41,320 nucleotides of DNA from an uncultured delta proteobacterium. Lineage in GTDB: Bacteria > Myxococcota_A > Polyangia > Polyangiales > JADJMO01. Both the position numbers and the translations under genes were made by a program. The notes beneath the pieces were generated by a model. That model made no database searches and was not told where the DNA came from. It saw only the letters and a list, made by a program, of their open reading frames with translations. This document shows positions 10,276-38,383 of this stretch, in pieces (the first letter of the stretch is position 1; every line of letters begins with the position of its first letter). The DNA lies in NCBI GenBank assembly GCA_903923175.1, contig CAIXWQ010000915.1:1-41320 (forward strand), given 5' to 3'.

Positions 10276-10536
10276 GGCGTCGCCCTGGCGGGACGAGTGG
10301 CGGACTCCTCGGAGCCGCAGGGAGGGACGCCGTCGTCGCGGCGGAGGCGCTCGCGCGCGGAACTCGAAGTCGTCACGGCGCCGATCCGCGCGTGCGCGAG
10401 ACTTGGGGCGCTCCCATCATCGTGTCTCATGTGCATCATCTCGATCTAGGGTCCGTAGACTGGCAATGACAGTGGTCGCCCTCGTCGACGTCGTGCGCGC
10501 GCGCGTCGCCGTGGTCCTCACGCGCTCGTCGCTCGT

Positions 10537-11853: not shown

Positions 11854-11862
11854 GATTGCGCC

Positions 11863-12396: not shown

Positions 12397-14705
12397 GGGA
12401 GCTGCTCCTCGGACTCGACGGTCCGATATCCGGTGACCATCGATTGGAGATGATCGCCGACCGTTCGACCGGTGGTGACCAGGTAGGCGTGGAGGACGAA
12501 GAACGACAGGAAGAGCCAGGCGCCGAAGTTGTGCACCGGGGCCACGATCGAGAGGCCGCCGAGCGCGGCCGCGAACGAGGGCCAGCGGCCGATCACCCAG
12601 ATGAGCGTGCCGCTGACGATCTGCACCGGGAAGAGCACGTTCAGCAGCGCGAGGTAGGTGACCTGCTGGAGCGGGTTGAGCTTCTCGGTCGCGGCCTGCG
12701 GCGGGTGCGGCGCGCCGACGAAGATGCCGCGCGACTGGTAGCTCACGTGTTCGAGCACGCGCTTCATGAAGCCCACTGGCTCGGGGATGAAGCTCCGGAT
12801 GGCGACGGTCGCCAGGTGGTAGAAGAGCGAGAGGAACGCGTTCACGGTGAGCACCACCGCGGCGGCGTTGTGCACGAGGACGACCTTCGGGAGGGTGCCC
12901 ATCCAGCCGCTTCCGGCGTTGTGGATGCCGAGGCCGGTGACGATCAGCACGAGCCCGCTGCCGGCCATCGTCCAGTGCCAGAGGCGCTCGTAGCGGCCGA
13001 AGACGCGGACCTTCTCGGTCGCGCCGCCAGTGGCGTGAGGCGCGTGCGGCACATGGCCGGCGCGCTTGGTCATCAGATAGCGCACGGAGCCGTGTCCGGT
13101 GACGCCGAGCGCCACGGCGAGGAAGATGAGAAAGCCGAGCCGATTGCTCCACGCGTGCCGCGTGGCGCCGAGCACGTACATGCGCCCGGCCGCCGGCGCG
13201 GTCTCCCGCAGGAAGGTGAGCCCTCCCCCCGGCGTTCCGAGGATCTTCCCGGCCAAGGGCGGGCCCCCGCCGTCGGGCGGGAGCGGTGCGACGCCGCCGG
13301 GGAGGAACGGCACGACTGGAAAGGCAGCCGACAGTCGCGAGCCCGCGGCGTGGCACCCGTCGCAATCACGCAGCGCGTGGCTCCGCGGCGCGACGCCGTG
13401 GGCCAGCGGGTGGGTTTCGAGCGTCCCTTCGATGGTGGGCGCGGCCACGCCGGCGGCCGCGAGGCGTGCCGTGATGAGCGCGGTCTTGGCCGGGGTATCG
13501 AGCCGGAGCTCGGCGTCGTCGAGCAGCCCGTCGTGATTGCCGTCGAAGCCCTCGAGGACCGCCGGGGCGTAGCGCCCCTGCTCGAGGAACGCCGCGGCGA
13601 CGAGCGGCGCAGGCACGGCTTCGCGGGTGGAGCCCGAGATCCACCGATAGCGGCTCACGAGGTTGACGGGGGTGAGGCGCCGCACGCCGTCGGGCTCGAC
13701 GCGCTCGATCAGGAGCGGCTGGAACGGCCGGATGAGCGCGGCGTTGAGCGGCTCGCCGTTGCGCCGCTCGACGTTCCGATAGTGGACCGCCGCGCCGCCC
13801 GAGAGCGTCGAGACGGTCGCGTCGATCAGGTCCGCGACGGGCCCCATCGGCGCCGGGATGTGGCAAGTCTGACAGGCGAGGACCTCCAGATGGCGCTCGC
13901 GATAGGGGAGGAAATCGTGCGCCGAGAGGGCGTCGTGGCAGCTCCGACACCCGGGCTCGGCGAGCTGGTGATCGGGCCGCACGAGGAACTCGGCCGTGCT
14001 CTGCCGCCGCGGATCCGCGGTCACGTAGCGCAGCTCTTGCTGCTTGTCGTCGACCCGCGCGCGCGCCGGGTTGTTGCGCGCGTAGTGGCACGAGGTGCAC
14101 TCCACGAGCTTGGCGGCGTGCACGTCCCACGGAATGGCGAGCGCGCTCTTCCCCTGGAGATCCAGGAACGAGTCGGACATGCGTTGCGGCGAGACGATGG
14201 CGCCTTCGCCCAGCGTGAGCGACCAGGTCCTGCCTGCGGTCGAGCTCGCGCCCTCCAGCTCCGGCGGGAGGACGAGCACGCCTTGCGCCTCGCCGATCAG
14301 GCCGTGGCAGGAGGCGCAGTTGGCGGGGCGCGGCGTGCCGATCTTGATCGCTTCGCGCACGAGCTGCCCGGCCTTGTCGAGGTGGCGCGGGGAGACGTCG
14401 AGTCGCCCCTGGTCGGCGTGACACTGGATGCAGGTCGCGCCTCCGTGTCCGCCGTGCCCCTCGCGCCCTCCGCGCGCTTCGTGCGAGCCAGCGCCGAGCA
14501 TCGTGTGCGCGTCGATGTAGCGCGCGTCGTGGCAGACGCTGCAGGTCATGGTGGCGGAGATGTCTTCGGCGCGCGTGGCGGCGTTGCCGTGCGCGTCGAA
14601 GGGGGTGAACGCCGGGTGGATCGGATTGACGCTCTGCTGGGCGGCCGCGGAGACGGGGAGCGCGACGGCGGCGGCGACCAGGAGTGCGCGGAGAGGGGCG
14701 TTCAC
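12393..14705 (-). CDS. Heptaheme cytochrome c fused to a cytochrome b quinol-interacting domain
   Basis: A 770-residue exported and membrane-bound electron-transfer protein. A Sec signal (residues 1-23) is followed by a multiheme region with seven CxxCH sites (C55, C92, C130, C203, C253, C278, C448), an EF-hand-like DGNHDGLLDDAE loop (about 388-399), and a C-terminal four-helix cytochrome b domain (about 573-765) with paired histidines in LWHWTMAGSG, LVHNAAAVV and FFVLHAYL, as in PhsC/FdnI-type subunits. The natural role is to move electrons between quinones and the octaheme enzyme encoded just upstream (inference). The GTG start at 14705 overlaps that gene's stop and follows GGGAGG. The fusion of both modules in one chain is unusual. 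Confidence 0.85.
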   Translation of the reverse strand: MNAPLRALLVAAAVALPVSAAAQQSVNPIHPAFTPFDAHGNAATRAEDISATMTCSVCHDARYIDAHTMLGAGSHEARGGREGHGGHGGATCIQCHADQGRLDVSPRHLDKAGQLVREAIKIGTPRPANCASCHGLIGEAQGVLVLPPELEGASSTAGRTWSLTLGEGAIVSPQRMSDSFLDLQGKSALAIPWDVHAAKLVECTSCHYARNNPARARVDDKQQELRYVTADPRRQSTAEFLVRPDHQLAEPGCRSCHDALSAHDFLPYRERHLEVLACQTCHIPAPMGPVADLIDATVSTLSGGAAVHYRNVERRNGEPLNAALIRPFQPLLIERVEPDGVRRLTPVNLVSRYRWISGSTREAVPAPLVAAAFLEQGRYAPAVLEGFDGNHDGLLDDAELRLDTPAKTALITARLAAAGVAAPTIEGTLETHPLAHGVAPRSHALRDCDGCHAAGSRLSAAFPVVPFLPGGVAPLPPDGGGPPLAGKILGTPGGGLTFLRETAPAAGRMYVLGATRHAWSNRLGFLIFLAVALGVTGHGSVRYLMTKRAGHVPHAPHATGGATEKVRVFGRYERLWHWTMAGSGLVLIVTGLGIHNAGSGWMGTLPKVVLVHNAAAVVLTVNAFLSLFYHLATVAIRSFIPEPVGFMKRVLEHVSYQSRGIFVGAPHPPQAATEKLNPLQQVTYLALLNVLFPVQIVSGTLIWVIGRWPSFAAALGGLSIVAPVHNFGAWLFLSFFVLHAYLVTTGRTVGDHLQSMVTGYRTVESEEQLP

Positions 14706-16129
14706 CGGCGACCTCCCGTCTTCATCGGGTCGCCCGCGTAGCCGAGCGCCTGCCAGTCCATGCGGCGGCTGTCGCCGTGGCACTCGGTGCATCCGAGGGC
14801 CTTCTCCTTCGGCGTCACCATGTGTGTGATGGGCCAGTACATCTCGGTCTCCGCGAAGGCGTACTTCCCGCTGTAGGCCAGGCCGGAGAACGCAGCCCCC
14901 TTGCGGAACGCGTCGTCCCAGTCGAACCGCGTCCAGTAGCCGTCCTTGCCGCCGGTGAGCGGGGCGAGCAGGTAGAGATTCTCGGCGTCGTACGGCTGCC
15001 TCGCGCGGTGGACCTTGAAGGGCCAGATTCGGGACTTCTTGTCGCCGATTCCGCCGCGGGGCGGGTTGATGGAGGTGACCTTGGTGGGGTCGATGCGATC
15101 GCCGGCGAGGTAGCGGTCGACCGTCTCGTCGAACCAGCGGTACTCGGGCACGGTGTCCTGCTCGTATTGGAACTCGCCCTTGATCTTCAGGTAGTGGTGC
15201 GGGTCGTCCTTGCGCGACGAGTCGCCGGCCTTGCTCCAGTCCCAATACGCTTTGGTCGGCAGCTTCTTCGCGAAGCTCGGGATGTGGCACGACTGGCACG
15301 CGAGCGTCGCGAGGTGCGTGTCGATGCGCGCGTCTTGGTGCTTCGGCGTCGCGTGGCAGTCGCTGCAGGCGATGCCGTGCGAGCCACCGACGCTCACCGA
15401 GAAGGCGCGCCCGCGAATCTTGTGATCTTCGGTGGTGTGGCAGTCGACGCAGAGGAAGCCGAGGCGGCTCATGTGCACGTCGTCCTCGTCCGTCGGATGG
15501 TTGAGCGAGGAGTCGAGGTCGCCGTGCTTCACCGCCTGGCCGCCGCCGCCGTAGGCGTGGCAGCCGAGGCAGTTGTCGCGGGACGGCGTGCCCACCGAGC
15601 GCGCGGCCGCGGTCAAATCCACGCCCTTCGCCGGCATTCCGGCCTGACCCTTCACGTAGGTGCCCGCGTGCTCGTGGCAGACGAGGCAGTCGACGTTCTC
15701 CGCGTTGCCGAAATCGAACTTCTGGTCCGCCCAGCCGTAGCCGGCGTGGCACTTCATGCACGAGACCTCGTTGCCAGCGGTCGCGATGCAGAAGTTGTTG
15801 ATGAGGTTCTTCTTCCCGATGCGCGTCGGCGCGTGATTGCCGATCCGGACCTCCTCGCCCAGCCACGTGAAGTGCGAGGTGTGCATCACCTCCGCGGACT
15901 TCGGGTGGCATGAGAGGCAGTTGCGCGTCACCGCCTGCGGCGACTCGAACTTCTCGGTGATCACTGCGGCGTGATCGAAATGGGCGCGGATCCGCTTCTC
16001 GAACGGCGCGCGCGCGTGCGCCTTGGTGCGGGCGCGCAGCGCGGCGGTCCCTCCGGCGAGCAGCAACACGCCGGTCAGGATGCCGAGGGTCCAGCGAGTC
16101 TTCGCGTGCTTCGCGAGCGATTGCGACAT
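14702..16129 (-). CDS. Octaheme c-type cytochrome, tetrathionate reductase family
   Basis: A 475-residue protein with an N-terminal membrane anchor or signal (about residues 11-31) and eight CxxCH heme sites (first cysteines near 71, 124, 148, 187, 227, 255, 278 and 447). The order and the segments WLGEEVRIGNHAPTRIGKKN and the C-terminal CTECHGD match the octaheme tetrathionate reductase (OTR) family. Family members reduce tetrathionate, and some reduce nitrite or hydroxylamine in vitro, so the true substrate is unproven; the sulfur neighbours favour tetrathionate or thiosulfate chemistry. First gene of a four-gene coupled operon, with a sigma-54-like promoter at 16185-16200. Confidence 0.88.
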   Translation of the reverse strand: MSQSLAKHAKTRWTLGILTGVLLLAGGTAALRARTKAHARAPFEKRIRAHFDHAAVITEKFESPQAVTRNCLSCHPKSAEVMHTSHFTWLGEEVRIGNHAPTRIGKKNLINNFCIATAGNEVSCMKCHAGYGWADQKFDFGNAENVDCLVCHEHAGTYVKGQAGMPAKGVDLTAAARSVGTPSRDNCLGCHAYGGGGQAVKHGDLDSSLNHPTDEDDVHMSRLGFLCVDCHTTEDHKIRGRAFSVSVGGSHGIACSDCHATPKHQDARIDTHLATLACQSCHIPSFAKKLPTKAYWDWSKAGDSSRKDDPHHYLKIKGEFQYEQDTVPEYRWFDETVDRYLAGDRIDPTKVTSINPPRGGIGDKKSRIWPFKVHRARQPYDAENLYLLAPLTGGKDGYWTRFDWDDAFRKGAAFSGLAYSGKYAFAETEMYWPITHMVTPKEKALGCTECHGDSRRMDWQALGYAGDPMKTGGRR

Positions 16130-16184
16130 GAGGATTCTGCCGTTGGAGGTGCTGGCCGCGGGGTCGCGACCCGACCGACCCCTG

Positions 16185-16200
16185 TGCAAGCGGTGGCCCA
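16185..16200 (-). promoter_or_regulatory. Sigma-54-like promoter of the octaheme operon
   Basis: Minus strand TGGGCCACCGCTTGCA: GG and GC are exactly 10 bases apart and 9 of 12 consensus positions match TGGCACGNNNNTTGCW. The predicted start of transcription, about 16174, is 45 bases before the octaheme ATG. GG-N10-GC is common in GC-rich DNA, so position and orientation matter as much as the match. Confidence 0.5.
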
Positions 16201-16241
16201 CTGCGTCAGGAGCGACGTCGCTCGCTGCGGCGAGAGGTCGT

Positions 16242-16270
16242 GTTGCGCGAACGCGACCGACGTTGCGCGA
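16242..16270. promoter_or_regulatory. Direct repeats between the divergent sigma-54-like promoters
   Basis: GTTGCGCGA occurs at 16242-16250 and 16262-16270, spaced by 20 bases (two helical turns), midway between the two divergent -24/-12 elements. This arrangement fits an enhancer-binding protein site serving both promoters. Confidence 0.4.
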
Positions 16271-16340
16271 CACGCGTCGCATCGCTGCAACCAGAGGGCG
16301 ATCGCCGCGCGTTTTGGGCGAGCAGAACGTCGCGACGACC

Positions 16341-16356
16341 TGGCATCGCGATTGCG
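16341..16356 (+). promoter_or_regulatory. Sigma-54-like promoter of the truncated activator gene
   Basis: TGGCATCGCGATTGCG keeps TGGCA and TTGC with the 10-base spacing between GG and GC. The predicted start of transcription near 16367 leaves a very short leader to the GTG at 16375, or about 26 bases to the in-frame ATG at 16393. Confidence 0.5.
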
Positions 16357-16374
16357 GAGTGACTGGCCGAACCC

Positions 16375-17310
16375 GTGCCCAACGAGCGCCGAATGTCGTC
16401 GTCGACCCCGTCCCCATCTCCCGCGTCGCCGTCGCGTTCCGCGGCCGGTCCGTACCGGTTCGGCGCGATGGTCTCCGGCAGCTCGCACATGAAGGAGGTC
16501 TTCGACCTCGCCGCGGAGCTCGCGGCGTCGCGCATCGACCTCGTGCTCGAAGGAGAGCGAGGCACCGGCAAGCAGCTGCTTGCTCGCGAGATTCACCGTC
16601 GCAGCGCGTTCGCGTCCGGGCCCTTCGTGGTCGCGCGCGTCGAGGGGAGCGGTGAGTGCGGGTGGACCGAGGCGGTCGAGCGTCGGTACGTCGAGTCCGC
16701 GGAGGGGGGCACGCTGTACCTCGAGGAGCTCGCCCGGATCCCGCCCAGGCGCCTGGTGGAGTTGCTACGCGCGCTCGATCGCACCTCGGCGGGCGTCTGC
16801 GCCCCGGGCACGCGCTCGGTGGCCCCGCGACGGCCGGCCGTGCGGATCATGGCGGCGACGCGCGTCGATCTCGCCGGCCTCCGGGGAGAGGGGCGCTTTC
16901 GCGAGGACCTCAATCGCCGCTTCGCGTGGTTTCCGCTGCGGATCCCGTCGCTCGCAGCACGCCCCGAGGACATCGGACTGCTGGCCGACTACTACTTGGC
17001 GCGCCTCGCCTGGCGCGCGCGGAGCGTGCCGCTCCGACTCGGGGAGGGGGCGCGCGCGGTGCTGCGGGAGCGGGCGTTCCACGGCAACGTCCGGGAGCTC
17101 GAGCTCGCCTTGAGCCGCGCGGCGAGGGTCGCGCGCGATGGTGAGATCGCCGTCGAGGACCTGCCGGCCGAGCTGCCGGCGCGATCGTCCCCGCGCGGTG
17201 GCTCTCGTGCGCGCCGGCCGGATCCCCTGGCCGGCCCCGACGCGCCGCGCGCCGCGAACGACGTCGATGCCCCTGCGCCGCTCGCGCTCGACGCGCTCGA
17301 CCTCGACTGA
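16375..17310 (+). CDS. Degenerate sigma-54 activator: AAA+ domain without GAFTGA loop or DNA-binding domain
   Basis: A 311-residue AAA+ protein of the enhancer-binding-protein family. Walker A (GERGTGK, about 60-66), sensor and arginine-finger segments (MAATRVDLAGL, REDLNRRFAWFPLRIPSL) and FHGNVRELELALSRAA are clear. But between Walker A and Walker B about 25 residues are missing, including the GAFTGA loop that touches sigma-54. Walker B is GGTLYLEEL, with Glu for the usual Asp, and there is no C-terminal Fis-type helix-turn-helix: the protein ends in a disordered Pro/Ala/Asp-rich tail. There is no sensor domain either. It cannot be an ordinary activator; a regulatory partner or antagonist of the full-length activator encoded next to it is plausible (inference). 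Start could be the ATG at 16393. Confidence 0.8.
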   Translation: MPNERRMSSSTPSPSPASPSRSAAGPYRFGAMVSGSSHMKEVFDLAAELAASRIDLVLEGERGTGKQLLAREIHRRSAFASGPFVVARVEGSGECGWTEAVERRYVESAEGGTLYLEELARIPPRRLVELLRALDRTSAGVCAPGTRSVAPRRPAVRIMAATRVDLAGLRGEGRFREDLNRRFAWFPLRIPSLAARPEDIGLLADYYLARLAWRARSVPLRLGEGARAVLRERAFHGNVRELELALSRAARVARDGEIAVEDLPAELPARSSPRGGSRARRPDPLAGPDAPRAANDVDAPAPLALDALDLD

Positions 17311-27049: not shown

Positions 27050-28606
27050 TCACTTCGAGAGAGGGCGCGCCGAGGCGGACGAAGGCGCCTCGTGCTCCAG
27101 GGACTTCTTCAGCTCGAGGAGGTTCACCACGCGCTTGGCGCCGCCGCGCAGCGCATCGTCGGACGCGGCTCGGACCTCGCTCCACGAATCGAGGCTCCCG
27201 GTGAGCGTCGCGACTCCGTCTTGGGCTACCGCGACCTTCACGCGGTCTCGCTGTACCCGCGGATCCCAGTACAGCCGATCGGTGATGCGCTCCCATATCT
27301 CCGTCGGCGTCCAGTCGACGGCCAGTCGGTCATCGACCTCGACGACGCCGGGGATGCTCGCCGCGTCGTCGATGGCGTCGAAGCGCTCGAAGGGCACCGC
27401 AATGGTTCCTCGGAGCACGACCTTGCCATTGGCGCTCGAGACCTCGATCGACCTGCCGTCCGGCAGGGCGAGATCCTCGGCGAGCGCCCGCTTCGCCGCG
27501 GCCTCGATCTCCGCGTCCGTGGGCGGGCGGCTTTGCACCGCGATCACCTCGTCGCGGACCTTCCAGACGCCGACCGTGTCCATCGCGTCCGCTGCCGCGG
27601 CCTTTCTGGCGAGCGCGCCGTCGACGTTGCCGCTCAGCGTGACGACGCCGTCTTTCACGGCGACCTTCGGAACCAGCAGCTTCAGGCGCGGGTCGAAGCG
27701 AAATGCGTCGCGAACTGCCGCGTCGATGTCGGCGTCGGACTTGATGGTGAGACTGCTCACGCTTCGCTGATCGTTCCACGTCGACCAATCGACGGTGACT
27801 TGCCCGTCGTCGACCGATTCGACCCCGGATACCCACGCGTCGGCGCGGAGCCGCGACTGCTGCGCCGCGCTCCCCACGACGCCGCTGAGGTGCACGGTGC
27901 GACCGGTCACCGCCAGGTCGACGACGTCGCCATCGAGCCACACGTCGCTCGCGATTCGCCGGCGAACGTCGGCCAGTATCTCTGCCTCGGGCTTGGTGAC
28001 CGGGCCGTGAACCCGAATTGCGTTGTCCAGCCCTCGCACGCCTTTGACGGACTTCGCCACGTCACCGAACAGCCCCCTCGTTTGCCAGGCGTCGGTTGTG
28101 CCGGAAAGCGTCACCGTTCCGTCCTTCACCGTGACACCGATCGTGTACGGGCGCGTCGCCCGATCCGCCTCGAGCGCGCGCTCGACGTCGCTCTTCACCA
28201 GCTCGTCGCCGCGGAACGCGGGCGTGACCCGCACCTCGTCCACGACGCTGCGAACGCCTCTGATCGTCTCGGCGAGGCTCACGGCCCGCTCCTTCGCGAG
28301 TAGCGTTCGCACCGAACCGGAGAGATCGGCGACGCCGCGGGCTACGGTCACCGTGATCGTCTCCGACCGGAGCGCTCCGTCCTCCTGCAGGTGCCGCTCG
28401 ATGGCGCGCGCGATGTCCGCATCTGCGAGCGCCGGGGCGTTCTTCGCCGGGGCGAGCGCGGCCGACGAGGCGGCCGGCGCGCCGGCGCTTGGCGTATTCC
28501 TCGAGGGCGACCCGCGTTGGCACCCCGCCAGCGCCGGGGCGAGTGACGCCACGCCCAGTAGCAGGCAATCACGGTACAGAGCTCGGAAGAGCATGCGCGC
28601 GGTCAT
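27050..28606 (-). CDS. Lipoprotein with six BON domains
   Basis: A 518-residue exported protein. The N-terminus is a lipoprotein signal (LAPALAGCQRG), then a Ser/Ala/Pro linker, then six BON (OsmY/nodulation) domains in tandem starting near residues 60, 131, 205, 292, 364 and 436. Each shows the helix followed by VTVxxGxVTLSG strands. BON domains bind phospholipid or peptidoglycan-associated surfaces and are common in envelope stress proteins; six in one lipoprotein is many. ATG 28606 follows GAGGAG. A sigma-54-like promoter lies 90 bases upstream. Confidence 0.88.
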   Translation of the reverse strand: MTARMLFRALYRDCLLLGVASLAPALAGCQRGSPSRNTPSAGAPAASSAALAPAKNAPALADADIARAIERHLQEDGALRSETITVTVARGVADLSGSVRTLLAKERAVSLAETIRGVRSVVDEVRVTPAFRGDELVKSDVERALEADRATRPYTIGVTVKDGTVTLSGTTDAWQTRGLFGDVAKSVKGVRGLDNAIRVHGPVTKPEAEILADVRRRIASDVWLDGDVVDLAVTGRTVHLSGVVGSAAQQSRLRADAWVSGVESVDDGQVTVDWSTWNDQRSVSSLTIKSDADIDAAVRDAFRFDPRLKLLVPKVAVKDGVVTLSGNVDGALARKAAAADAMDTVGVWKVRDEVIAVQSRPPTDAEIEAAAKRALAEDLALPDGRSIEVSSANGKVVLRGTIAVPFERFDAIDDAASIPGVVEVDDRLAVDWTPTEIWERITDRLYWDPRVQRDRVKVAVAQDGVATLTGSLDSWSEVRAASDDALRGGAKRVVNLLELKKSLEHEAPSSASARPLSK

Positions 28607-29302: not shown

Positions 29303-30856
29303 GTGTCGACACCCATCGATCTGAAGCCGAGTTTCGGCGCCAAGCAGAGCCTTCTCGCTGCGCGTGAGCCCCGCTCGTGGCTCTCCTCGCTCGACAGCCG
29401 GCGCATCGCGTTGACGTACCTCGGCACGCTCACGCTCACGCTCGCGATCGGGCTCGCGTTCGCGGTGCGGCTCGGCCTCGAGCGACTCGATCCGAGCTCG
29501 CTGCTGCTGAAGGGCGGCGCGTACGGCCGCGCGCTCGCGGCGCACGGCGTGGTCATGGTCTTCCTCGTCGTGATGCCGGCCATCCCGACGATCCTCGGCA
29601 GCTTCGTGCTGCCGCGGATGCTCGGAGCACGGAATCTCGCGTTCCCTCGCCTGAACCGGGGTGGGCTCTGGCTGTTCTGGGCGGGCGCTGCGTTGGTGCT
29701 CCTCGGCGTCAGCGCCTCGGGGCTTCGCTCGGCCTGGACCTTCACGGAGGCGTACGACGGCGCCGCGACCGGGAGCGGCGTGCTCCTGGTGATGACCGGC
29801 GCGCTGCTCGTCGCCGCGTCGGGGCTGCTCGGTGGGCTCAACGTCATCGTGACCATCCACAAGCTGCGCGCGCCGGGGCTCACCTGGAGCCGACTGCCGG
29901 TGCTCGCGTGGGCCGCCTACGGTGCGAGCGTGATCGCCGTGCTCGCGCCGGCGTCGCTCGCCCTCGCGCTGATGCTCGCGGCGGCGGAGCGGACGCTGCA
30001 CATCGGCATCTTCGATCCGGCGCTGGGCGGTGATCCGATCTTCTTCCAGCACCTGTTCTGGGGCTACGCGCACCCGATGCTCTTCGGCACCGTGCTCTGG
30101 GCGCTGGGGATCGCGAGCGAGCTGCTCGGCGCGCACGCGCGTCGACCGGTGTTCGGGCACGCGCTCCTCGGCCCGCTGATGCTCGTGCTCGCGCTGCTGT
30201 CGTTCACGCAGTGGGGGATCCATCTGGTCGGCGCGGGCGTGAGCGGCACGGCGGCTTCGGTCTTCTCGCTGGCCTCGCTGCTCTCGTCCGGCCTGATGGT
30301 GGTCGTGATCGGCAACTGGCTGGCGACGCTGCGCGGCGGCTCGATCGCCTTGACCGCGCCGATGCTGTTCGCGCTGTCGCTGATGCTGAACCTCACCGTC
30401 TGGCTCGCCTCTTCGGCCGCGCTCGCGGTGCTGGGCCTCGGCGCGTACCTCCGCGGTACGCAGTTCGAGGTCGCGCACGTCCACTACGGGCTCGTCGGCG
30501 TCACGCTCACGGCGTTCCTCGGCGGGCTGTTCCACTGGTGGCCGAAGCTCACCGGGCGCACGTACGACGAGCGCGCGGCGAAGGTCGTGGCGGTCGGGCT
30601 CGTCGTCGGGCTCGACGTCACGTTCTTCGGGCAGTTCGTCGCCGGCCTCGCCGGGACGGCGCACCGGCACGCGAACCTCGGGAGCCTGCAGCCACTCGAC
30701 CTGCTCAACGCCGTCGGCTCGGTCATCCTCGCGGGCGCGCTGCTGCTTTCAGCCCGCACGCTCATCGTCAGCCTGCTCTCTGGCCCCGTCGCCGCGCCGA
30801 ATCCCTGGGGCGCCACGAGCCTCGAGTGGCAGAGCGACTCACCGCCTCCTGCGTAG
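29303..30856 (+). CDS. Divergent heme-copper oxidase subunit I-like protein
   Basis: A 517-residue membrane protein of about 12 helices in the heme-copper oxidase superfamily. Heme ligand positions are kept: H81 (LAAHGVVMVF), and H392/H394 (VAHVHYG). GARNLAFPRLN and FDPALGGDPIFFQHLFW are typical. But the active-site motif GHPEVY reads AHPMLF (H257 kept; Tyr replaced by F261, Glu by M259), and the HH pair of helix VII reads I306-H307 by my alignment, so one copper ligand and the cross-linked tyrosine are lost. No subunit II or III is nearby. Oxygen reduction of the usual kind is doubtful; a nitric-oxide-reductase-like or electron-transfer role is possible. GTG start with AGGAGG 9 bases upstream. 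Confidence 0.8.
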   Translation: MSTPIDLKPSFGAKQSLLAAREPRSWLSSLDSRRIALTYLGTLTLTLAIGLAFAVRLGLERLDPSSLLLKGGAYGRALAAHGVVMVFLVVMPAIPTILGSFVLPRMLGARNLAFPRLNRGGLWLFWAGAALVLLGVSASGLRSAWTFTEAYDGAATGSGVLLVMTGALLVAASGLLGGLNVIVTIHKLRAPGLTWSRLPVLAWAAYGASVIAVLAPASLALALMLAAAERTLHIGIFDPALGGDPIFFQHLFWGYAHPMLFGTVLWALGIASELLGAHARRPVFGHALLGPLMLVLALLSFTQWGIHLVGAGVSGTAASVFSLASLLSSGLMVVVIGNWLATLRGGSIALTAPMLFALSLMLNLTVWLASSAALAVLGLGAYLRGTQFEVAHVHYGLVGVTLTAFLGGLFHWWPKLTGRTYDERAAKVVAVGLVVGLDVTFFGQFVAGLAGTAHRHANLGSLQPLDLLNAVGSVILAGALLLSARTLIVSLLSGPVAAPNPWGATSLEWQSDSPPPA

Positions 30857-30869
30857 AGCCTCGAGGCCT

Positions 30870-30915
30870 GATTCGTGATCCGCGAGGCGTCACCCCGCGG
30901 ATCACTCGTCGAATC
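30870..30915. terminator. Bidirectional hairpin terminator between convergent genes
   Basis: TGATCCGCG (30876-30884) pairs perfectly with CGCGGATCA (30896-30904) around an 11-base loop. An outer GATTCG/CGAATC pair extends it. It lies exactly between the oxidase-like gene and the convergent porin gene, reaching into the latter's stop codon. Confidence 0.7.
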
Positions 30916-32272
30916 AGAAGCGGTAGCTCGCGCCGACGTGCGCGGTCACCTGCGCCATCGAGACGTCGACCGAGTACCCGTTCGGGGTCGTCGTCCCCGG
31001 CTGGTGCGCGAGCTGGTTGTTCGCGTCCGTGGAGACCTTGTTCGCCGGCGAGATCTCCATCGCGACGTCGAACGAGAGCTTCTTGGGGATCGGTCGGACG
31101 CCGACGCCGAAGGCGAAGTGATGCTCGCTGACCGCGGGGAAGAGCGGGTTGACGCCGTCGCTCCGGACGGGCGACTTGCCGTAGTTGTAGCCGGCCCGCA
31201 CCGCGAAGGAGGGGATGATCTCGTACTCACCTCCGACGGCGAACGCGAGCTGATCGCGCCAGTGCATCTGGAACGGCGCCGTGAGCGTGCCGTACCCCGC
31301 AGGCGCCGGGCCCGTCGCCGTGCCGCTCAGCGTCACGGTGTCGATGGCGGCCGACCAACCGATCCAGTGCAGGTCGGCCCCGAGCAGGAGCCCGGGGATC
31401 GGCCGGACCGCGACGCCGCCCGCGATCTCCTGCGGCCAGCCGAAGTCCATGTTGCCGTCGTAGGAGAGTTGCCCGTCGACGGTGGCGGTCCCCTTGTATT
31501 TGAGGCTCGCCTTCGACTGGTAGCTGAGGCCGACGCTGAGCTTCTTCTCGAACATCTCCGCGAGCACGCCGAGGCGCACCGCGACGCCGGTCGCCCAGTC
31601 GGACTTGAACGCGAGCGAGTGCTGCGCGTAGAGGCCGCTCGTGTTGCCAGCCTCCGGGAACTGCATCCCGGAGTGCCGGAACTCCATGTTCGACATCCCT
31701 AGGTTCAGCGCGGCGCCGAACGAGAGATCGAAGCCCTTCGCGAGCCCCTCGAAGCGATAGGCCAGCGTCGGCGTGAGCTTCATGTACGAGACCTGGCTGA
31801 AGGTGTCGTACGTGCTCGGCGTCGGCACGCCGGGTTTGGTCGGATCGGCGACGAACGTGTGCAGTCCGCGGAACTCCGCGCCCATGCCCCCCTGCGTGGC
31901 GAAGCCGAGGCCGCCGTAGAGTCCATTCCAGAGGTGCGCGGTGAAGCCGGCATTGATGAGCGGGAAGACCTTGGACTGGCTCTTCACGCCGTCGTCGAGC
32001 GTCATGGTCCCAGAGGGCATCGCGGCGCTATCGGTCAGCGTCAGCGACGGCTGGAGCAAGCTCAGCGTCGCGTCGATCCGCATCGGCGACTGCGTGATGC
32101 CGGCCGGGTTGGTGTTCATCGCCGTCGTCTCGGTGGCGATGGCCTGATCCACGCCGCCGCGGCCCGCGGCTTCGACGCCGGAGGCTACTGGGTTCATCCC
32201 GTTGGTCGCGGCGGCGCCGGTGGTGAGCGTGCCGAGGAAGAGGACGACGAGCGTGCCGATGGTGCGTTTCAT
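30914..32272 (-). CDS. FadL/TodX (OMPP1) family outer-membrane transport protein
   Basis: A 452-residue outer-membrane beta-barrel. A Sec signal (MKRTIGTLVVLFLGTLTTG) is followed by the FadL hallmark near the mature N-terminus: NGMNPVASGVEAAGRGG and the NPAG motif (MNTNPAGIT), then many amphipathic strands ending in the aromatic C-terminus ASYRF. FadL proteins let hydrophobic substrates cross the outer membrane by lateral diffusion. Substrate unknown; placement beside sulfur genes does not define it. ATG 32272 after GAGG. Confidence 0.92.
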   Translation of the reverse strand: MKRTIGTLVVLFLGTLTTGAAATNGMNPVASGVEAAGRGGVDQAIATETTAMNTNPAGITQSPMRIDATLSLLQPSLTLTDSAAMPSGTMTLDDGVKSQSKVFPLINAGFTAHLWNGLYGGLGFATQGGMGAEFRGLHTFVADPTKPGVPTPSTYDTFSQVSYMKLTPTLAYRFEGLAKGFDLSFGAALNLGMSNMEFRHSGMQFPEAGNTSGLYAQHSLAFKSDWATGVAVRLGVLAEMFEKKLSVGLSYQSKASLKYKGTATVDGQLSYDGNMDFGWPQEIAGGVAVRPIPGLLLGADLHWIGWSAAIDTVTLSGTATGPAPAGYGTLTAPFQMHWRDQLAFAVGGEYEIIPSFAVRAGYNYGKSPVRSDGVNPLFPAVSEHHFAFGVGVRPIPKKLSFDVAMEISPANKVSTDANNQLAHQPGTTTPNGYSVDVSMAQVTAHVGASYRF

Positions 32273-32741
32273 GTTCGATCCTCGCGGGCCGTCGGCAGCT
32301 CCATGAGCGCGCGGCCGATGCTCGACGCGCGCCGTCGCCGGAGGGGCGAGGGCGATTGCGTCGGACGCCGTGCCGCGAGGCACGCGGCATGCCGCGCGAG
32401 AGGTGGATTCACTCGACGCGAATCGCCGAGAATTCCAGTCTGCCGGCGAGTGGTCGCGAACGAGCTGTTTCAAGCGCCGTGAACGGATCGTTGCGGCGCA
32501 CGGTCTTCTGCCGGAATCCTCGTGTCCCGTGCGATCGGCGCGCGACGTCCTGTTTCACGAACTCGGCCGTACGCGCGCCGAGGCTCGTTGCGCGCAGCCG
32601 CCGTCCGCGGCGCTCTGCATCGAGTCGCTCGAGCGGAGCGAGGCGACGGTGCTCGTCATCGCGAGAGCGGCACGGGCGCAGTCTACCGCTCGCGCGACGC
32701 CTGCTCTTTCGCACCTCGGCGCGCGAAGGGGGGCGGTGCGC
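32273..32741. other. Intergenic region upstream of the FadL-type gene
   Basis: No credible gene in these 469 bases. It contains a 7-bp hairpin (TGCCGCG-AGGCA-CGCGGCA, 32371-32389) and two copies of CTGTTTCA (minus-strand TGAAACAG) at 32465-32472 and 32550-32557. The same octamer occurs in front of psrA (38415-38422), so these may be binding sites for a shared regulator. Confidence 0.4.
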
Positions 32742-33356
32742 TCAGCACCCCTCGCGCTTCTTCGGCGCGCCGCCCCCCGCGGGGGCTGCAGCCGGCGCGA
32801 GCGGAGCGAGGACGGGCGCGGCCGGCGCGAGCGACGCGTCGCCGAACGCGTGCCGGAGCGCGACCTGCGTCCGGAAGGTCTGCCAGGTCGCCGCGTTGGC
32901 GTTGGGCCAGGGCGTGGCGGGATCCGCGTCCATCACGCGGTCCCACGCGTCGAGGCCGCCGAGGAGCACGCGCGTCTCCACGCCCTTGGCGAGCAGCCGT
33001 CGCGCGAGGCGGTCGGCGCGCACCTGATCGAACGCCGCGAGCACCACGCGTCGGGCCTTCGGCGGCGCGGCGAGCAGCGCTTCGTCGGAGGCTGCCAATG
33101 CCGACATGGGCATCGCGCCGCGCAGGGGATGTCGCGCCTCGTCGAGCCCGATGACCAGCAGATCGGGTGGACCCTCGGAGAGGAGCTTGGCGAGCGCGAA
33201 CGGCTCGATCGCGACCGGCGCCCACGTGACCGCGGCGTCGGCCGGCGGCGTCTTGCTCTTCGGCGCACGGCCCGCGAGCGCGGCGCTCCCGAGGGCGAGG
33301 GCGAGCGCGCTGCCGGCGAGGACCAGCTTGGGGGAGATCGGCATGGTCGTTCCCAT
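32742..33356 (-). CDS. Exported cysteine-less rhodanese-like protein with C-terminal cysteine
   Basis: A 204-residue protein with a signal peptide (KLVLAGSALALALGSAALAG), then a rhodanese-like domain (PDLLVIGLDEARHPLRGAM to VLLGGLDAWDRVM). At the catalytic-cysteine position the sequence is VLAAFDQVRADRLARRL, so no persulfide-forming Cys is present. After a Pro/Ala-rich linker the chain ends PKKREGC, its only cysteine. The same architecture is fused to the transporter at 10537-11853. Its start overlaps the upstream transporter stop (TGATG at 33354-33358), so the two are coupled. Probable role: a periplasmic sulfur acceptor or carrier for the transporter (inference). Confidence 0.75.
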   Translation of the reverse strand: MGTTMPISPKLVLAGSALALALGSAALAGRAPKSKTPPADAAVTWAPVAIEPFALAKLLSEGPPDLLVIGLDEARHPLRGAMPMSALAASDEALLAAPPKARRVVLAAFDQVRADRLARRLLAKGVETRVLLGGLDAWDRVMDADPATPWPNANAATWQTFRTQVALRHAFGDASLAPAAPVLAPLAPAAAPAGGGAPKKREGC

Positions 33357-34006
33357 CACTCCGCGGGGCTCACGCCGTCGGCGTGCGCGTCGTGCACGTT
33401 CGTGTCGCCCTTGTCGGTAGCCTTGGGCGTTGCCCCGGGGCCACGCATCTTGCGCTCGATCCACTCGGCGCCGACGAACATGCCGAGCGCGAGGAGCGTG
33501 ACCAGCACGGCCACGGTGCCGAACGACAGGTGCAGCCAGTCGGTGAGCAGGATGCGTTGGTTGGCGCCCGACTTCGCGAAGTGCTCGAGCTTCCCGTACG
33601 CGCCGGCGAAGCCGAGGATGCCGAACGCGGCGCCGCCGAGGAACGCGACCGCGTCGAGCTTGCCGGTCACCGCGGCGACGATCGCGGTGCCCGGGCAGTA
33701 GCCGCCGACGGCGAAGCCGACGCCGAAGACGAGGCCGCCCACGACCTGCGGTGGGAGGGCCGTCGGGTTCACGTACAGCGCGTCGAAGTCGAGCACGCCG
33801 GCGGTGCGCAGCACGACGAGGCCGAGCATCGCGGTGACGATCGCGGTGAACATGACCTTCAGCACGGTCATGTCGCGCAGGTAGAACTGCGCGGCGAGCT
33901 TGCGCGAGCTGCCGAAGCCGGCGCGCTCGAGCACGAAGCCGAAGCCGAAGCCGGCGAGGATCGCGAAGGTGTAGGCGACCCAGGTCTGCGGGTGGATCGG
34001 CATCAT
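33356..34006 (-). CDS. YeeE/TsuA-type sulfur transporter half (second module)
   Basis: A 216-residue membrane protein matching the first part of 10537-11853: FGFGFVLERAGFGSSRKLAAQF and LRDMTVLKVMFTAIV, with the conserved GGYCPGTAIVAAVTGK loop carrying the transport cysteine. The hydrophilic tail is acidic and His-containing. ATG 34006 overlaps the upstream stop (ATGA) and has AGGAGG 8 bases upstream. It forms a two-gene transporter with 34003-34566, downstream of psrABC, so thiosulfate, tetrathionate or polysulfide import for or from that enzyme is likely (inference). Confidence 0.88.
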   Translation of the reverse strand: MMPIHPQTWVAYTFAILAGFGFGFVLERAGFGSSRKLAAQFYLRDMTVLKVMFTAIVTAMLGLVVLRTAGVLDFDALYVNPTALPPQVVGGLVFGVGFAVGGYCPGTAIVAAVTGKLDAVAFLGGAAFGILGFAGAYGKLEHFAKSGANQRILLTDWLHLSFGTVAVLVTLLALGMFVGAEWIERKMRGPGATPKATDKGDTNVHDAHADGVSPAE

Positions 34007-34566
34007 GTCCACAACCTCCTCACGAAGTACGCGGCCCCGTAGCCGCCGGCGAAGACCGAGAACATGAACGCCCAGCTGCCGAGGGCGAGCGTCGCGCCAC
34101 CGGTCAGCGCCTGCCCGCTGGTGCAGCCGCCGGCCAGGCGCGCGCCGACGCCGACGATGGCGCCGCCGACGAAGGCGAAGAGCAGCCGCGACCTCGCGGA
34201 GACGCGCGGGCCCCGCTCGATCACGGCGCCGAAGCGACCGCTGGTGAGCCCTGCCGCGAGTCCGCCGATCAGCACGCCGACGAGCTCGAAGACGAGCCAG
34301 TCGTCCCACCAGTGCGCGCCCGGCGCGAAGTAGGCGCCGATGGCACCATTGGCATGAACCCAGCTCGGCGCGACGAATTCGGTGATCTTCGCGGTGATGC
34401 GGGTGAGCGCCCCCGAGGCGCCGAGGCCGCGGCCGACGACCAGGAAGGTGCCGAGGAGCACCAGGCCGAGGAAGACGCCTGCGACGTACGGGTCCCAGAG
34501 CGGCTTGGCGCGGAAGTGACCGCTGCCGACGTGGGGTGAGTCGTCGTGTGTGGATGCGTTCGCCAT
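34003..34566 (-). CDS. YeeE/TsuA-type sulfur transporter half (second module)
   Basis: A 187-residue membrane protein, paralogue of 11863-12396. It has GLGASGALTRITAKI, the cysteine loop LAGGCTSGQALTGGATL and GSWAFMFSVFAGGYGAAYF. It supplies the second half of the split transporter. It begins 19 bases after the NrfD-type subunit gene ends and overlaps the next transporter gene by 4 bases. Confidence 0.88.
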   Translation of the reverse strand: MANASTHDDSPHVGSGHFRAKPLWDPYVAGVFLGLVLLGTFLVVGRGLGASGALTRITAKITEFVAPSWVHANGAIGAYFAPGAHWWDDWLVFELVGVLIGGLAAGLTSGRFGAVIERGPRVSARSRLLFAFVGGAIVGVGARLAGGCTSGQALTGGATLALGSWAFMFSVFAGGYGAAYFVRRLWT

Positions 34567-34585
34567 GTTGTTGCCTCAGCGCGTC

Positions 34586-35530
34586 TCAGCCCGTGACGAA
34601 GCTGCCGTCTTGGCCGGCGTAGACGATCACGAAGCGCAGCAAGAGCCCGCCCGCGAGCACGAGGGCCGGGGTCCAGCGCGAGTGGAGGGCGCGTCCGCGC
34701 AGCGACAGCGTCTCGAGCGCGGCCGGCACGAGCAGCCCGCCGAAGACGACCATGCCGACGAACGCGGGCGCGTACGCGCCGGTGAGCACCAGCGTGGCGG
34801 CCTGACGATAGAGCGGCCCTTGGGTCATCAGCCCGACCAGCCAGAGCCCGATGACCGAGACCTCGATCGCGATCAGCGCGAGATCGGCCTTGGCGAAGAG
34901 CGCGTTCATCGCCTCGTCGCGCTCGGCGATCATGAGGGCAGCGACGCCGGTCGACGCGCCCGAGGCGAGGAACAGGAACCCGAGCGCTCCGCTCGACCAC
35001 AGCGGCCGTGCGACGGTCGCGGAGAGGAGCACGCCCGTGTAGATGCCCAGCGCGGCGCCGAGGCCGAGGCCGAGGCCGGCGAGCGCCTTCACGTTCCGCT
35101 CGCACCACGCGCGGCTCGCGCTCAGGAATGCGAAGCGATCGAGCTGCTTGCCGACGAGCTCGTGCGGGAGCGCGAGGATGAGCCCGATCTGCACCGGATA
35201 CACGAGCAAGAGCACCCAGGAGCCGAGCGACATCGGCGCCGTCGGCACCAGCGTCGTGTAGAAGCGGAAGACGTGCAGCTTGTAGGTGAGGTCGAGGAAC
35301 AGCGCCCCCATGCCGAGCGAAAGGAGCACCGGCGCACCCACGAGCCCGAGCCGCATGGCCTTGGTGACGCGCTCGCGGCCGAGCACGAGGATCGACGCGG
35401 AGACGGCGAGCATGAGCCCCGCGACCAGCCCGCCGAGGAAGAGGTAGATCGGCACCTCCCACCCCCAGACGCGCTCGGCCATCGCGCGGGCGACGGCGCG
35501 GGTCGACTCGATCTCGATGTGCGGATTCAT
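34586..35530 (-). CDS. NrfD/PsrC-type membrane quinol-interacting subunit
   Basis: A 314-residue protein with eight or nine membrane helices, matching the NrfD/PsrC family: WGWEVPIYLFLGGLVAGLML at the start and TLVPTAPMSLGSWVLLL in the middle. In polysulfide and thiosulfate reductases this subunit passes electrons between the quinone pool and the iron-sulfur subunit. It lies 14 bases after the ferredoxin-like subunit gene in a psrABC order. Confidence 0.92.
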   Translation of the reverse strand: MNPHIEIESTRAVARAMAERVWGWEVPIYLFLGGLVAGLMLAVSASILVLGRERVTKAMRLGLVGAPVLLSLGMGALFLDLTYKLHVFRFYTTLVPTAPMSLGSWVLLLVYPVQIGLILALPHELVGKQLDRFAFLSASRAWCERNVKALAGLGLGLGAALGIYTGVLLSATVARPLWSSGALGFLFLASGASTGVAALMIAERDEAMNALFAKADLALIAIEVSVIGLWLVGLMTQGPLYRQAATLVLTGAYAPAFVGMVVFGGLLVPAALETLSLRGRALHSRWTPALVLAGGLLLRFVIVYAGQDGSFVTG

Positions 35531-35544
35531 CTGCGAAGCTCCTG

Positions 35545-36078
35545 TCAGCGCACGTAGTAGACGTTGGGCTTGGTGCCGGCTTCGGCGGCGATCACCGAGG
35601 CGTTGCCGCGCTTGAGGCGCAGCGACACGAGCGAGGTCGGATCGTCGAGATCGCCGGTCACGATCGCGCCCGTGGGGCAGACCTCCTGGCACGCGGTCGG
35701 CAGCCCCTTGTCGGCGCGGTGGACACAGAGCGTGCACTTGTCGACGAACCCCTCCGGGTTCACGTAGCGCGCGTCGTAGGGGCACGACTCGATGCAGGCG
35801 CGGCAGCCGGTGCAGAGGTCTCGGTCGACCTGCACGGTGCCGTCGCCGCGGTAGAAGCTCGCGCCGGCGGGGCAGTTGGTGACGCACGGCGCGTTGCTGC
35901 AGTGGTTGCAGCGCTGCGAGCGAATCAGCAGCTCGAGGTTCGGGAACTCGCCGCGCGACTCCTGGGTGACCCAGTCGCGATATGACCCTTCCGGGACGCG
36001 GTTCTCCGTCTTGCACGCGACCACGCAGGCCTCGCAGCCGACGCAGCGTCGCGTGTCGATGACCATTGCCCGGCGCAT
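35545..36078 (-). CDS. 4Fe-4S electron-transfer subunit (PsrB/PhsB-type)
   Basis: A 177-residue ferredoxin-like protein with four cysteine clusters: CVGCEACVVACK, CNHCSNAPCVTNCP, CTGCRACIESCP and CTLC...CQEVCP. These hold four 4Fe-4S centres, as in PsrB, PhsB and DmsB. No export signal of its own; such subunits ride with the Tat-exported catalytic partner. It begins 2 bases after the molybdoenzyme stop codon. Confidence 0.93.
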   Translation of the reverse strand: MRRAMVIDTRRCVGCEACVVACKTENRVPEGSYRDWVTQESRGEFPNLELLIRSQRCNHCSNAPCVTNCPAGASFYRGDGTVQVDRDLCTGCRACIESCPYDARYVNPEGFVDKCTLCVHRADKGLPTACQEVCPTGAIVTGDLDDPTSLVSLRLKRGNASVIAAEAGTKPNVYYVR

Positions 36079-36080
36079 GT

Positions 36081-38291
36081 CTAGGCCTCCAACTTCCGGA
36101 TCGCGACGAAGTTCACGCGCATCCCGGTCCCGCCCATCACCGGATCGGTGCCGACCCGCGAGACGAGGCCGGAGTCGTCCGCGCCCTTGCCGCTGGCGTA
36201 CTTGAGACCCTTGGCGGTGTGCCCCCAGCCGTGGACCATGAAGACACAGTCGCCGCGGATGCGTTCGGTGGCCTTCAGCTCGATCGGTGCGCTCTCGATG
36301 CCGTCCTGGTTCACGAGCTTCACGCGCGCGCCGTCGGTGAGGCCCAGGTCGGCGGCTACCTTGGCGTTGAGCCACAGCTTGTCGTTGTGCGACAGCTCGC
36401 CGAGGAGGCGATTGTTGGTCGTGCGCCCGAAGGTCTGCGCCGGCGCGCGGCCGTACAGCAAGCGGAAGTAGCCAGGGGGCGGTCCGACGGGGCGCTTGAA
36501 GACGGGCAGGGGATCGAAGCCGGCCTTCGCAAGCTTCTCCGAGTAGATCTCGATCTTCTTGCTCTCGGTCGCGAAGGTGAGCGCGAGGCCATCCTCGACC
36601 ACCGTCGGCTTGTCGGGCGCCGGCAGGAAGCCTTCGCGCGCGAGTGCCTCGAAGTCGATGCCGGAGAGGCGGCAGCGCTCCTTCAGGTACGATTCGATGT
36701 CGGTCCACGGGAAGTAGGCGCCGAGCCCGAGCTTGGTCGCGAGCTCCTTCGCGATCCACCAGCCGGGCTTCGCGTCGCCTGGCGGCGCGATCATCGGCTG
36801 GCGCAACGCGACGCCGCTCTGGTGCCAGGAGACGCCGAGCAGATCGTCGTAGCGCTCCAGATAGGACGCCTCGGGGAGGACCACGTCGGCGTAGCCCGCG
36901 ATCTCTGCGGGGATCAGATCGCAGACCACCAGCAGATCGAGCGCCTCGATCGCCTTGAGCGTCTCCGCCCGCTGCGGGAGCGACTGGATCAGGTTCGTGC
37001 CGTACACGAACCACGCCTTGATGGGGTACGGCTTACCGTCGAGCGTCGCGCGGCGGAGCCCTTGCGCCAGCGGCTCGAGCGCGAACGGCGCCTCGCCTTC
37101 GACGCGATCGGCCGGCGGCTTGGCCTTCGGATACGCCGGCGTCGGGAACTTCGCGAGCTTCATGCCGCTCGGGCGGAAGAAGCCGCCCCGGTGGCCCCAG
37201 CTGCCGAGCACGGCATTCAAGATCGCGATCGCGCGCTCGCGATGCGTGTCGTCGGCGCCGTACCAGGAGGCGTGTCGCCCGGGGTGCACGAGGACGGCGG
37301 GCTGCGCGCCGGCGATGCGGCGGGCGGTGTTGCGGATGACCTCCGCGTCGAGGCCGGTCTCGGCGGCGGCCCACTCCGGCGTGTAGGCCTTCACCGCCTC
37401 CTCGAGCTTGTCGAAGCCGGTGGTGTAGGCCTCGACGTAGGCGCGGTTGTGACGCCCTTCGCCGACGATCACGTGCAGCCAGGCGAGCAGCAGCGCCGTG
37501 TCGGTGCCGGGGCGGATCGGCATCCAGGTGCGCGCCTTCGAGGCCGCGGTCGAGAAGCGCGGATCGACCACGATGAGATCGCCGTCGCGCGCGACGAACT
37601 CGGCGAAGTCCTGCACCTGCGTGTTGTGCATGTTCTCGCCGAGGTGCGAGCCGATCAGCACCAGACAATCGGACTTCGAGATGTCGAGCACCTCGGGCGA
37701 GCCCGGCTCGGCCCCGAAGGTGATGTCGAAGGCTACGTCCCGCGGGCCGCGGCACTGCGCGAACGACGGCGCGCCGAAGTTCGCCGTTCCGTACGCTTGC
37801 AGCAGGTGCTTGAACCAAGAGGCGCCGGCGCCGTGGTTGAAGAGCGCGACGGCCTCGGGCCCGTGCTTTTTCTTGATGTCGTCGAGCTTCGCGGCGATGA
37901 AGCCGAGCGCCTCGTCCCACGAGACCGCCTTGAACTCCTCGCTGCCGCGGGGGCCGACGCGCAGCAGCGGCTTCACCAGACGATCGGGGTCGTACGACTG
38001 CCCTTGGCCGCCGGCGCCGCGTGGGCACAGCTTGCCGTTGGAGAGCGGGTGCACCGGGCTCCCCTGGATCTTCAAGAGTCTGTCGCCCTGCACGTGCCCC
38101 TGGATCCCGCACTTCCAGAAGCAGACCTCGCACACCGACCGGATGAGCTTGCCGTCGGTCGAGGGGTCGATGGTGCCGTGCGCCGCCTGTGCGGTCCGCG
38201 GGGCGAGGAGGAAGCGCGCTGCGCCGGCCGCCGCGAGGGTGCCGGCGGCGAGGCTGAGGAAGCGCCTGCGTGAGGGGGACGAGTCGCCCAT
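36081..38291 (-). CDS. Molybdopterin oxidoreductase catalytic subunit (thiosulfate/polysulfide/tetrathionate reductase type)
   Basis: A 736-residue catalytic subunit. The N-terminus is a Tat signal (SRRRFLSL). The 4Fe-4S ligands are C54, C57, C61 and C89 (CEVCFWKCG, then LCPRG). FAQCRGPRD (C180) is the likely molybdenum ligand region; Cys is the ligand in PsrA-type enzymes. The C-terminal dinucleotide-binding domain ends VGTDPVMGGTGMRVNFVAI. It would reduce or oxidise an inorganic sulfur compound at the periplasmic face with electrons from PsrB/PsrC-like partners. Substrate cannot be fixed from sequence alone; the thiosulfate-type transporter in the same operon is suggestive. A sigma-54-like element lies only a few bases upstream of the ATG I chose. 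Confidence 0.9.
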   Translation of the reverse strand: MGDSSPSRRRFLSLAAGTLAAAGAARFLLAPRTAQAAHGTIDPSTDGKLIRSVCEVCFWKCGIQGHVQGDRLLKIQGSPVHPLSNGKLCPRGAGGQGQSYDPDRLVKPLLRVGPRGSEEFKAVSWDEALGFIAAKLDDIKKKHGPEAVALFNHGAGASWFKHLLQAYGTANFGAPSFAQCRGPRDVAFDITFGAEPGSPEVLDISKSDCLVLIGSHLGENMHNTQVQDFAEFVARDGDLIVVDPRFSTAASKARTWMPIRPGTDTALLLAWLHVIVGEGRHNRAYVEAYTTGFDKLEEAVKAYTPEWAAAETGLDAEVIRNTARRIAGAQPAVLVHPGRHASWYGADDTHRERAIAILNAVLGSWGHRGGFFRPSGMKLAKFPTPAYPKAKPPADRVEGEAPFALEPLAQGLRRATLDGKPYPIKAWFVYGTNLIQSLPQRAETLKAIEALDLLVVCDLIPAEIAGYADVVLPEASYLERYDDLLGVSWHQSGVALRQPMIAPPGDAKPGWWIAKELATKLGLGAYFPWTDIESYLKERCRLSGIDFEALAREGFLPAPDKPTVVEDGLALTFATESKKIEIYSEKLAKAGFDPLPVFKRPVGPPPGYFRLLYGRAPAQTFGRTTNNRLLGELSHNDKLWLNAKVAADLGLTDGARVKLVNQDGIESAPIELKATERIRGDCVFMVHGWGHTAKGLKYASGKGADDSGLVSRVGTDPVMGGTGMRVNFVAIRKLEA

Positions 38292-38303
38292 CTCCGCCCG
38301 CAC

Positions 38304-38319
38304 AGCAACCGCGGTGCCA
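38304..38319 (-). promoter_or_regulatory. Sigma-54-like promoter in front of the psrA-type gene
   Basis: Minus strand TGGCACCGCGGTTGCT matches 11 of 12 positions of TGGCACGNNNNTTGCW, the best in the window. The predicted transcription start (about 38293) is almost on top of the ATG at 38291, leaving no leader; either the transcript is nearly leaderless or the match is fortuitous. Confidence 0.45.
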
Positions 38320-38383
38320 GCGGACGCCACGGTCGATTGTGCGGGCGAATCGCCTGTGCGCCGAAGGCCGGAGCGAACCCGAT

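Follow-up and report, generated by a model that had tools for sequence, protein, structure and literature searches.

What becomes of a heme-copper oxidase subunit I when its heme ligands stay and the rest of its catalytic core is replaced? Across the superfamily, the copper site, the Tyr-His cross-link and the proton channels are regarded as an invariable core. Naturally evolved proteins without this core, but with the heme ligands in place, would show reuse of the fold, would provide natural controls for the role of each residue, and would warn that the genome label "cytochrome c oxidase subunit I" does not necessarily imply aerobic respiration. According to PMC3578206, every member of the family binds the copper through three His. 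The question is raised here by one gene in a window of 41,320 bases, which is a whole contig of a genome of 10.7 Mb (1,422 contigs, 95.6% complete) and for which a preliminary description had proposed a heme-copper oxidase subunit I with an altered active site.

Fold and active site of the focal protein

The gene, its ribosome-binding sequence and the aligned positions of its metal-site and channel residues are as follows.

29303..30856, plus strand: oxidase-like gene, A2-type CtaD-like subunit I, orphan, catalytically altered, 517 aa
29288..29293, plus strand: Shine-Dalgarno-like AGGAGG, 9 bases 5' of the GTG start, from sequence reading
29543..29545, plus strand: His81, low-spin heme ligand of helix II, retained
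29633..29635, plus strand: Asn111, where the D-channel Asp is expected
30071..30073, plus strand: His257, CuB ligand of helix VI, retained
30083..30085, plus strand: Phe261, where the cross-linked Tyr is expected
30218..30220, plus strand: Ile306, where the first CuB His of helix VII is expected
30221..30223, plus strand: His307, second CuB His of helix VII, retained
30305..30307, plus strand: Val335, where the K-channel Lys is expected
30452..30457, plus strand: Arg384-Gly385, where the Mg-site His-Asp is expected
30476..30484, plus strand: His392 (high-spin heme) and His394 (low-spin heme), retained

The plus-strand frame at 29303-30856 consists of 517 open codons and starts with GTG. The Pfam model COX1 spans the protein end to end (282 bits), and the top NCBIfam model is CtaD_CoxA, whose score of 390 bits is under the model's cut-off of 671 bits. 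The AlphaFold model, for which 35 aligned sequences were the input, has a pLDDT of 84.6 and a pTM of 0.87 and adopts the fold of oxidase subunit I; the 50 matches listed by Foldseek all belong to subunit I of cytochrome c or quinol oxidases, with TM-scores (query) of 0.84 to 0.91, and PDB titles among the matches name K362M and D132A mutants. The family assignment of the preliminary description was thus confirmed. The codon-position GC of the gene (0.70/0.51/0.93) is like that of most adjacent genes measured and, together with the AlphaFold scores and the oxidase matches of Foldseek, indicates that the gene is neither chance nor a misreading. A frameshift, a wrong frame and a wrong start were dropped on the basis of the AGGAGG with GTG, the open frame, the codon GC and the fold.

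The three heme-ligand His (H81, H392 and H394) are present, as had been claimed. Helix VI of the protein reads GYAHPMLF and helix VII reads QWGIHLVG, so that H257 and H307 remain at the copper site with I306 at the third position, and F261 takes the place of the cross-linked Tyr. The earlier claims that HH of helix VII had become IH and that the Tyr and one copper ligand were lost therefore hold, and alignment with homologues, which had been named as the test against them, restored neither the three His nor the Tyr. The active-site alteration in fact exceeds what was claimed, since D111, K335 and H384/D385 are also lost, with N111 and V335 at the D- and K-channel positions. The substitutions comprise D111N, Y261F, H306I, K335V, H384R, D385G and R454H, and R455 is retained. 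In R. sphaeroides numbering, we take the retained residues H81, H257, H307, H392, H394 and R455 to be 102, 284, 334, 419, 421 and 482, and the changed sites D111, Y261, H306, K335, H384/D385 and R454 to be 132, 288, 333, 362, 411/412 and 481; the residue roles are presumed likewise. In the loop between the last helices (window 30656-30670), the focal protein has TAHRH where relatives have MPRRY, which puts two new His near the heme propionates, a possible new metal or proton site.

Origin in A2-type CtaD and recurrence of the altered site

The close relatives, found in Myxococcota, Planctomycetota and proteobacterial plasmids, carry YSHPAVY in helix VI, a form that we take to be the A2 type. 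The Glu of GHPEVY was therefore already absent and was not lost in the focal lineage. GHPEVY was dropped as the ancestral motif; of the earlier proposal that GHPEVY had become AHPMLF, the AHPMLF end is correct and the GHPEVY baseline is not. The focal protein is a derivative of A2-type CtaD. Its best matches, at approximately 45% identity, are a CtaD of the same genus, a protein from one genome of another family in the same class, and one from a Cupriavidus plasmid. The A2 CtaD proteins of ACIII-linked caa3 systems on plasmids of Paraburkholderia sabiae, Martelella mediterranea and Mesorhizobium terrae are homologous over the full length at 42-45% identity. The operons of three of the annotated plasmid relatives contain NrfD, DUF3341, cytochrome c, SCO, coxB, cox3 and cox4, and we take them to be Alternative-Complex-III (ACIII)-caa3 clusters. 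Burkholderiales A2 CtaD and the focal protein have in common AHG in helix II and GAR-x-x-AFPRLN; the Burkholderiales GARD(L/M)AFPRLN is matched except for the Asp. In contrast to ACIII-linked A2 CtaD, the copper His, Tyr, Lys, Asp and Mg-site residues of the focal protein are replaced, and its gene has no adjoining coxB, ctaE, SCO or ACIII genes. The best PDB sequence match is subunit I/III of Thermus thermophilus caa3 (2yev; 250 bits, Foldseek TM 0.91), from which the focal protein differs in lacking the fused subunit III part and in replacement of the same catalytic residues. The earlier statement that no subunit II gene is adjacent also proved right: a profile search found no PF00116 on the focal contig, and the three matches of the genome are all on other contigs.

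The focal gene is an orphan paralogue in its genome, which has in addition a canonical ctaD (C875), a second canonical ctaD cut by the contig end (C789), a CcoN-like gene (C1368) and two bd oxidase subunits I. Searches of 144, 377, 183 and 317 genomes (overlapping sets) gave no ortholog above 45% identity; they scored at most 10, 3, 8 and 4 candidates per genome among the matches listed, and fast-evolving altered copies can therefore escape them. A contig scan of close relatives with six short peptide patterns yielded 59 loci and no useful ortholog (43% for the best full-length match, 46% for a short end fragment), and 904 plasmid records gave no match above 60%, the best of five read being 45.4%. 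Several candidates were rejected: a second same-genus candidate (L172) is an ordinary NorB, the set at 43-45% in one same-class genus (L099-L103) is canonical, and the copy in G007 (L106) is canonical A1. In the same-genus genome G001, the FadL neighbour is 78% identical, another sequence lies beside it in place of the oxidase-like gene, and no homologue of the BON protein was found at the cut-off used; conserved synteny around the focal gene was not found.

The focal protein was aligned with 112 homologues and eight positions were scored (H81, D111, H257, Y261, H306, H307, H392 and H394). The full set occurs in 110 of the 112. K335 is also present in 101 of those 110, and the nine canonical rows without it are all A1-like, so loss of the K-channel Lys alone is not diagnostic. 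The only exceptions are L111 (G046, contig C590) and L108 (G137, contig C205), from two other genomes of the order. HH and the Tyr were found in all 17 further, weaker relatives of the order (picked from a list), two of which are without the D-channel Asp and in which the K position is variable. From this survey, the altered group is recognised by the change of HH to xH; a missing Lys or Asp is not sufficient by itself. Full-text literature searching brought up no report that we recognised of such orphan subunit I proteins.

L111 (505 aa) has LHPALA and GWGQH, L108 (511 aa) has VHGVTY, with the Tyr retained, and AWGSH; both are without the K-channel Lys and D-channel Asp, and both retain the same five metal His as the focal protein. 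Each shares 35-37% identity with the focal protein, and the two share 31%. A conservation of 97% or more in 100 canonical A2 proteins defines 162 positions, of which 94 are retained in the focal protein, 74 in L111 and 80 in L108. All three keep 44 of these positions in common, compared to approximately 21 expected under independence, and 41 are lost in all three, compared to approximately 19. The shared losses include H306, D111, K335, D385 and Y387. Five of the six metal His are among the 44 positions kept, and if independence is assumed, five or more of the six would survive in all three proteins with a chance of approximately 2e-4. Among 214 positions with a conservation of at least 90%, only 5 show an identical substitution in the three proteins. 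In joint trees the three orphans group with a support of 95 or 72, all on very long branches (the focal end branch is 2.47; median, 0.16), and when placed singly they take different, unsupported positions; trees with end branches at the bound of 10.00 were used only to show this unstable placement. The three orphans need not form one clade, since long branches attract. The similar copies in two related genomes suggest that a respiratory enzyme was reused for another job.

Both of these genomes also carry altered copies of the ordinary oxidase operon.

G046, contig C593, 7824-9327, minus strand: L162, ctaD with a frame break in an ACIII-coxB-ctaD-ctaE operon read from translations by eye
G137, contig C205, 15857-25100: ACIII operon (L108/L109), coxB without CuA ligands, no ctaD after coxB

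The L162 protein carries H306S, K335T, D111G, D385G and H392Q, the last of which removes one heme ligand; its two frames are 57-61% identical to the canonical CtaD of the focal genome, and it is far less diverged than the orphans. It has lost 5 of 13 preset functional positions compared to 18 of 165 others (Fisher p 0.015), 3 of these 18 adjoining the frame break. The corresponding losses in the focal protein are 7 of 13 and 68 of 165 (p 0.27), and L111 (p 0.66) and L108 (p 0.97) show no concentration of functional losses either; in these three proteins none appears because so much else has changed. A targeted loss of functional positions in the focal protein alone is not shown. The coxB protein of G046 is without the late CuA His and the Met, and that of G137 is without the first CuA His and the Met; all of these ligands are present in the canonical coxB of the focal genome; the CuA ligand positions are those that we presume. 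In G137 (93% complete), no PF00115 match besides L108 and no bd oxidase subunit I were found. In G046, PF00115 matches one intact protein that is not of A type (C423, 381 bits) and is like CcoN-type hits, and no bd oxidase was found there. A PsrA-like gene of G046 is also frame-broken, and sequencing error in that genome is therefore possible.

Sulfur-redox neighbourhood

The nearest genes on both sides of the focal gene lie on the opposite strand.

27050..28606, minus strand: multi-BON-domain protein, on the other flank of the oxidase-like gene
30914..32473, minus strand: FadL/OMPP1-family protein, convergent with the oxidase-like gene
33356..34566, minus strand: two YeeE/YedE sulfur-transport half proteins (Pfam)
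34586..36016, minus strand: NrfD/PsrC membrane anchor, open frame, domain in residues 182-469
36081..38330, minus strand: PsrA/PhsA-like molybdoenzyme subunit, best PDB match Thermus 2vpw, 676 bits

The Psr-type cluster of the window also includes an iron-sulfur protein. Elsewhere in the window are an octaheme cytochrome of the tetrathionate reductase family (533 bits, above the cut-off of 375), a cytochrome bd subunit I, sulfur-transport and rhodanese genes, and an enzyme of Cys/Met metabolism. From its gene content, the window reads as a putative sulfur-redox and respiration island. Near the G046 orphan are a DUF302 gene and, 1.6 kb away, a PsrA-like fragment (46% over 117 residues). No Psr enzyme was found in G137, where 2.1 kb separate the orphan from the end of its contig, and the focal gene is not co-directional with the Psr genes of its window. 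A link between the oxidase-like protein and the Psr-type sulfur-redox genes is thus weakly indicated and suggestive only, because it rests on two of the three orphan-bearing genomes.

As side observations, the bd subunit I, sulfur-transport/rhodanese genes and octaheme cytochrome lie in one stretch (window 8893-16417), the Psr/Phs-type molybdoenzyme cluster with its split YeeE/YedE occupies 32742-38330, and the protein at 32742-33464, which has no Pfam or NCBIfam match, is rhodanese-like by eye only.

Retained heme protein or relic

We observed the replaced residues, a predicted oxidase fold and recurrence in other genomes, and on these grounds the focal protein is a genuine, recurrent, non-catalytic-looking variant of oxidase subunit I. 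Whether the gene is an A2-type CtaD paralogue that has given up O2 reduction and proton pumping and been kept as a heme protein is, in our judgement, evenly balanced. Its product most probably no longer pumps protons and, as a membrane protein with two hemes, has taken on a new role in electron transfer (or gas binding), a function that we infer, as we do heme loading and a partner. The low-spin heme (H81/H394) would receive the electrons and hand them on, across or along the membrane, to the high-spin heme (H392), the distal side of which would be without a full copper site. Going by mutants of the D and K inputs, a protein with both gone and with no proper copper site would neither pump protons nor be an efficient oxidase. 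Alternatively, a five-coordinate heme might bind a diatomic gas, and the protein could work without CuA; it possibly serves the adjacent sulfur-redox genes. The earlier reading as a protein that only moves electrons fits best, with the passage of electrons itself still conjectural.

The main rival, which we consider rather unlikely, is a paralogue in slow decay after duplication or transfer, with no present function and with its frame kept since the loss is recent or slow. The very long branch and orphan location would suit such decay, as would the absence at ortholog-level identity from same-genus and family genomes and the loss of functional positions at the same rate as other conserved ones; G046 and G137 also look like lineages losing their A-type oxidase, one by an altered, frame-broken ctaD and the other by a damaged coxB with no ctaD. 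However, the gene has 517 open codons and a GC3 of 0.93 at 45% identity, whereas neutral point-mutation walks from the canonical paralogue to that identity acquired 6.4 stops on average and only 3 of 1000 walks had none (indels not counted), and the same five metal His are kept in three very diverged proteins. The open frame and retained His speak, not decisively, for a retained and probably heme-binding protein. A quite doubtful reading is a heme-based gas sensor, scavenger or regulatory/assembly protein, whose five-coordinate heme would bind O2, NO, CO or sulfide without turnover. The high-spin heme His is retained without a full CuB site, the gene stands alone, and the sulfur-rich context would suit a sulfide- or gas-responsive protein; on the other hand, no fused or adjacent output domain was found, and the protein has kept its membrane helices and its two low-spin heme ligands, which goes beyond the needs of a sensor.

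Two enzymatic readings are less probable still. One, which we judge improbable, is that the protein still reduces O2 or another small molecule at a site where two His bind copper or a different metal, and takes up protons by a changed path. This reading draws on G137 (93% complete), where the altered L108 keeps the Tyr and is the sole PF00115 match, where no bd subunit I was found and where ACIII and coxB are still present; but that coxB is also without CuA ligands, the losses at the K and D channels and the Mg site accompany that of the copper ligand, and canonical A2, cbb3-type and bd oxidases are all encoded in the focal genome as well. The NO-reductase-like enzyme that the preliminary description had offered is very improbable. 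Oxidase-derived NO reductases with a changed Tyr position do exist (excerpts of PMC8756737), and eNOR, sNOR and gNOR there share with the focal protein an oxidase fold and a replaced Tyr. The Tyr equivalent in the types listed in the excerpts (PMC8756737 Table A4, PMC10256718) is Glu in c/qNOR, Gln in eNOR, Asn in sNOR/CuANor and Asp in gNOR, and three His bind the non-heme metal in the NO reductases whose structures are known (PMC8756737, PMC10256718). Phe261 fits none of these types, and unlike eNOR, sNOR and gNOR the focal protein is also missing a copper-site His. No fused or partner electron-input domain was found in the 517 residues or in the adjacent frames scanned, and no NorC, quinol-oxidase domain or cupredoxin lies beside the gene. 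The proposal was dropped against the published residue table, the profile models ranking CtaD first.

A wider and unlikely extension would be that copper-less "pseudo-oxidases" have arisen more than once in this group with the same catalytic and channel losses, in some genomes along with a CuA-damaged subunit II, and that their two hemes now conduct electrons through the membrane, linking ACIII or quinol-linked sulfur enzymes to another acceptor. A departure near the copper site has likewise been reported for the cbb3-type oxidase of Nitrospina gracilis, where, in the excerpted text (PMC3578206), the change is in a neighbouring Trp, unlike the loss of a copper His in the focal protein.
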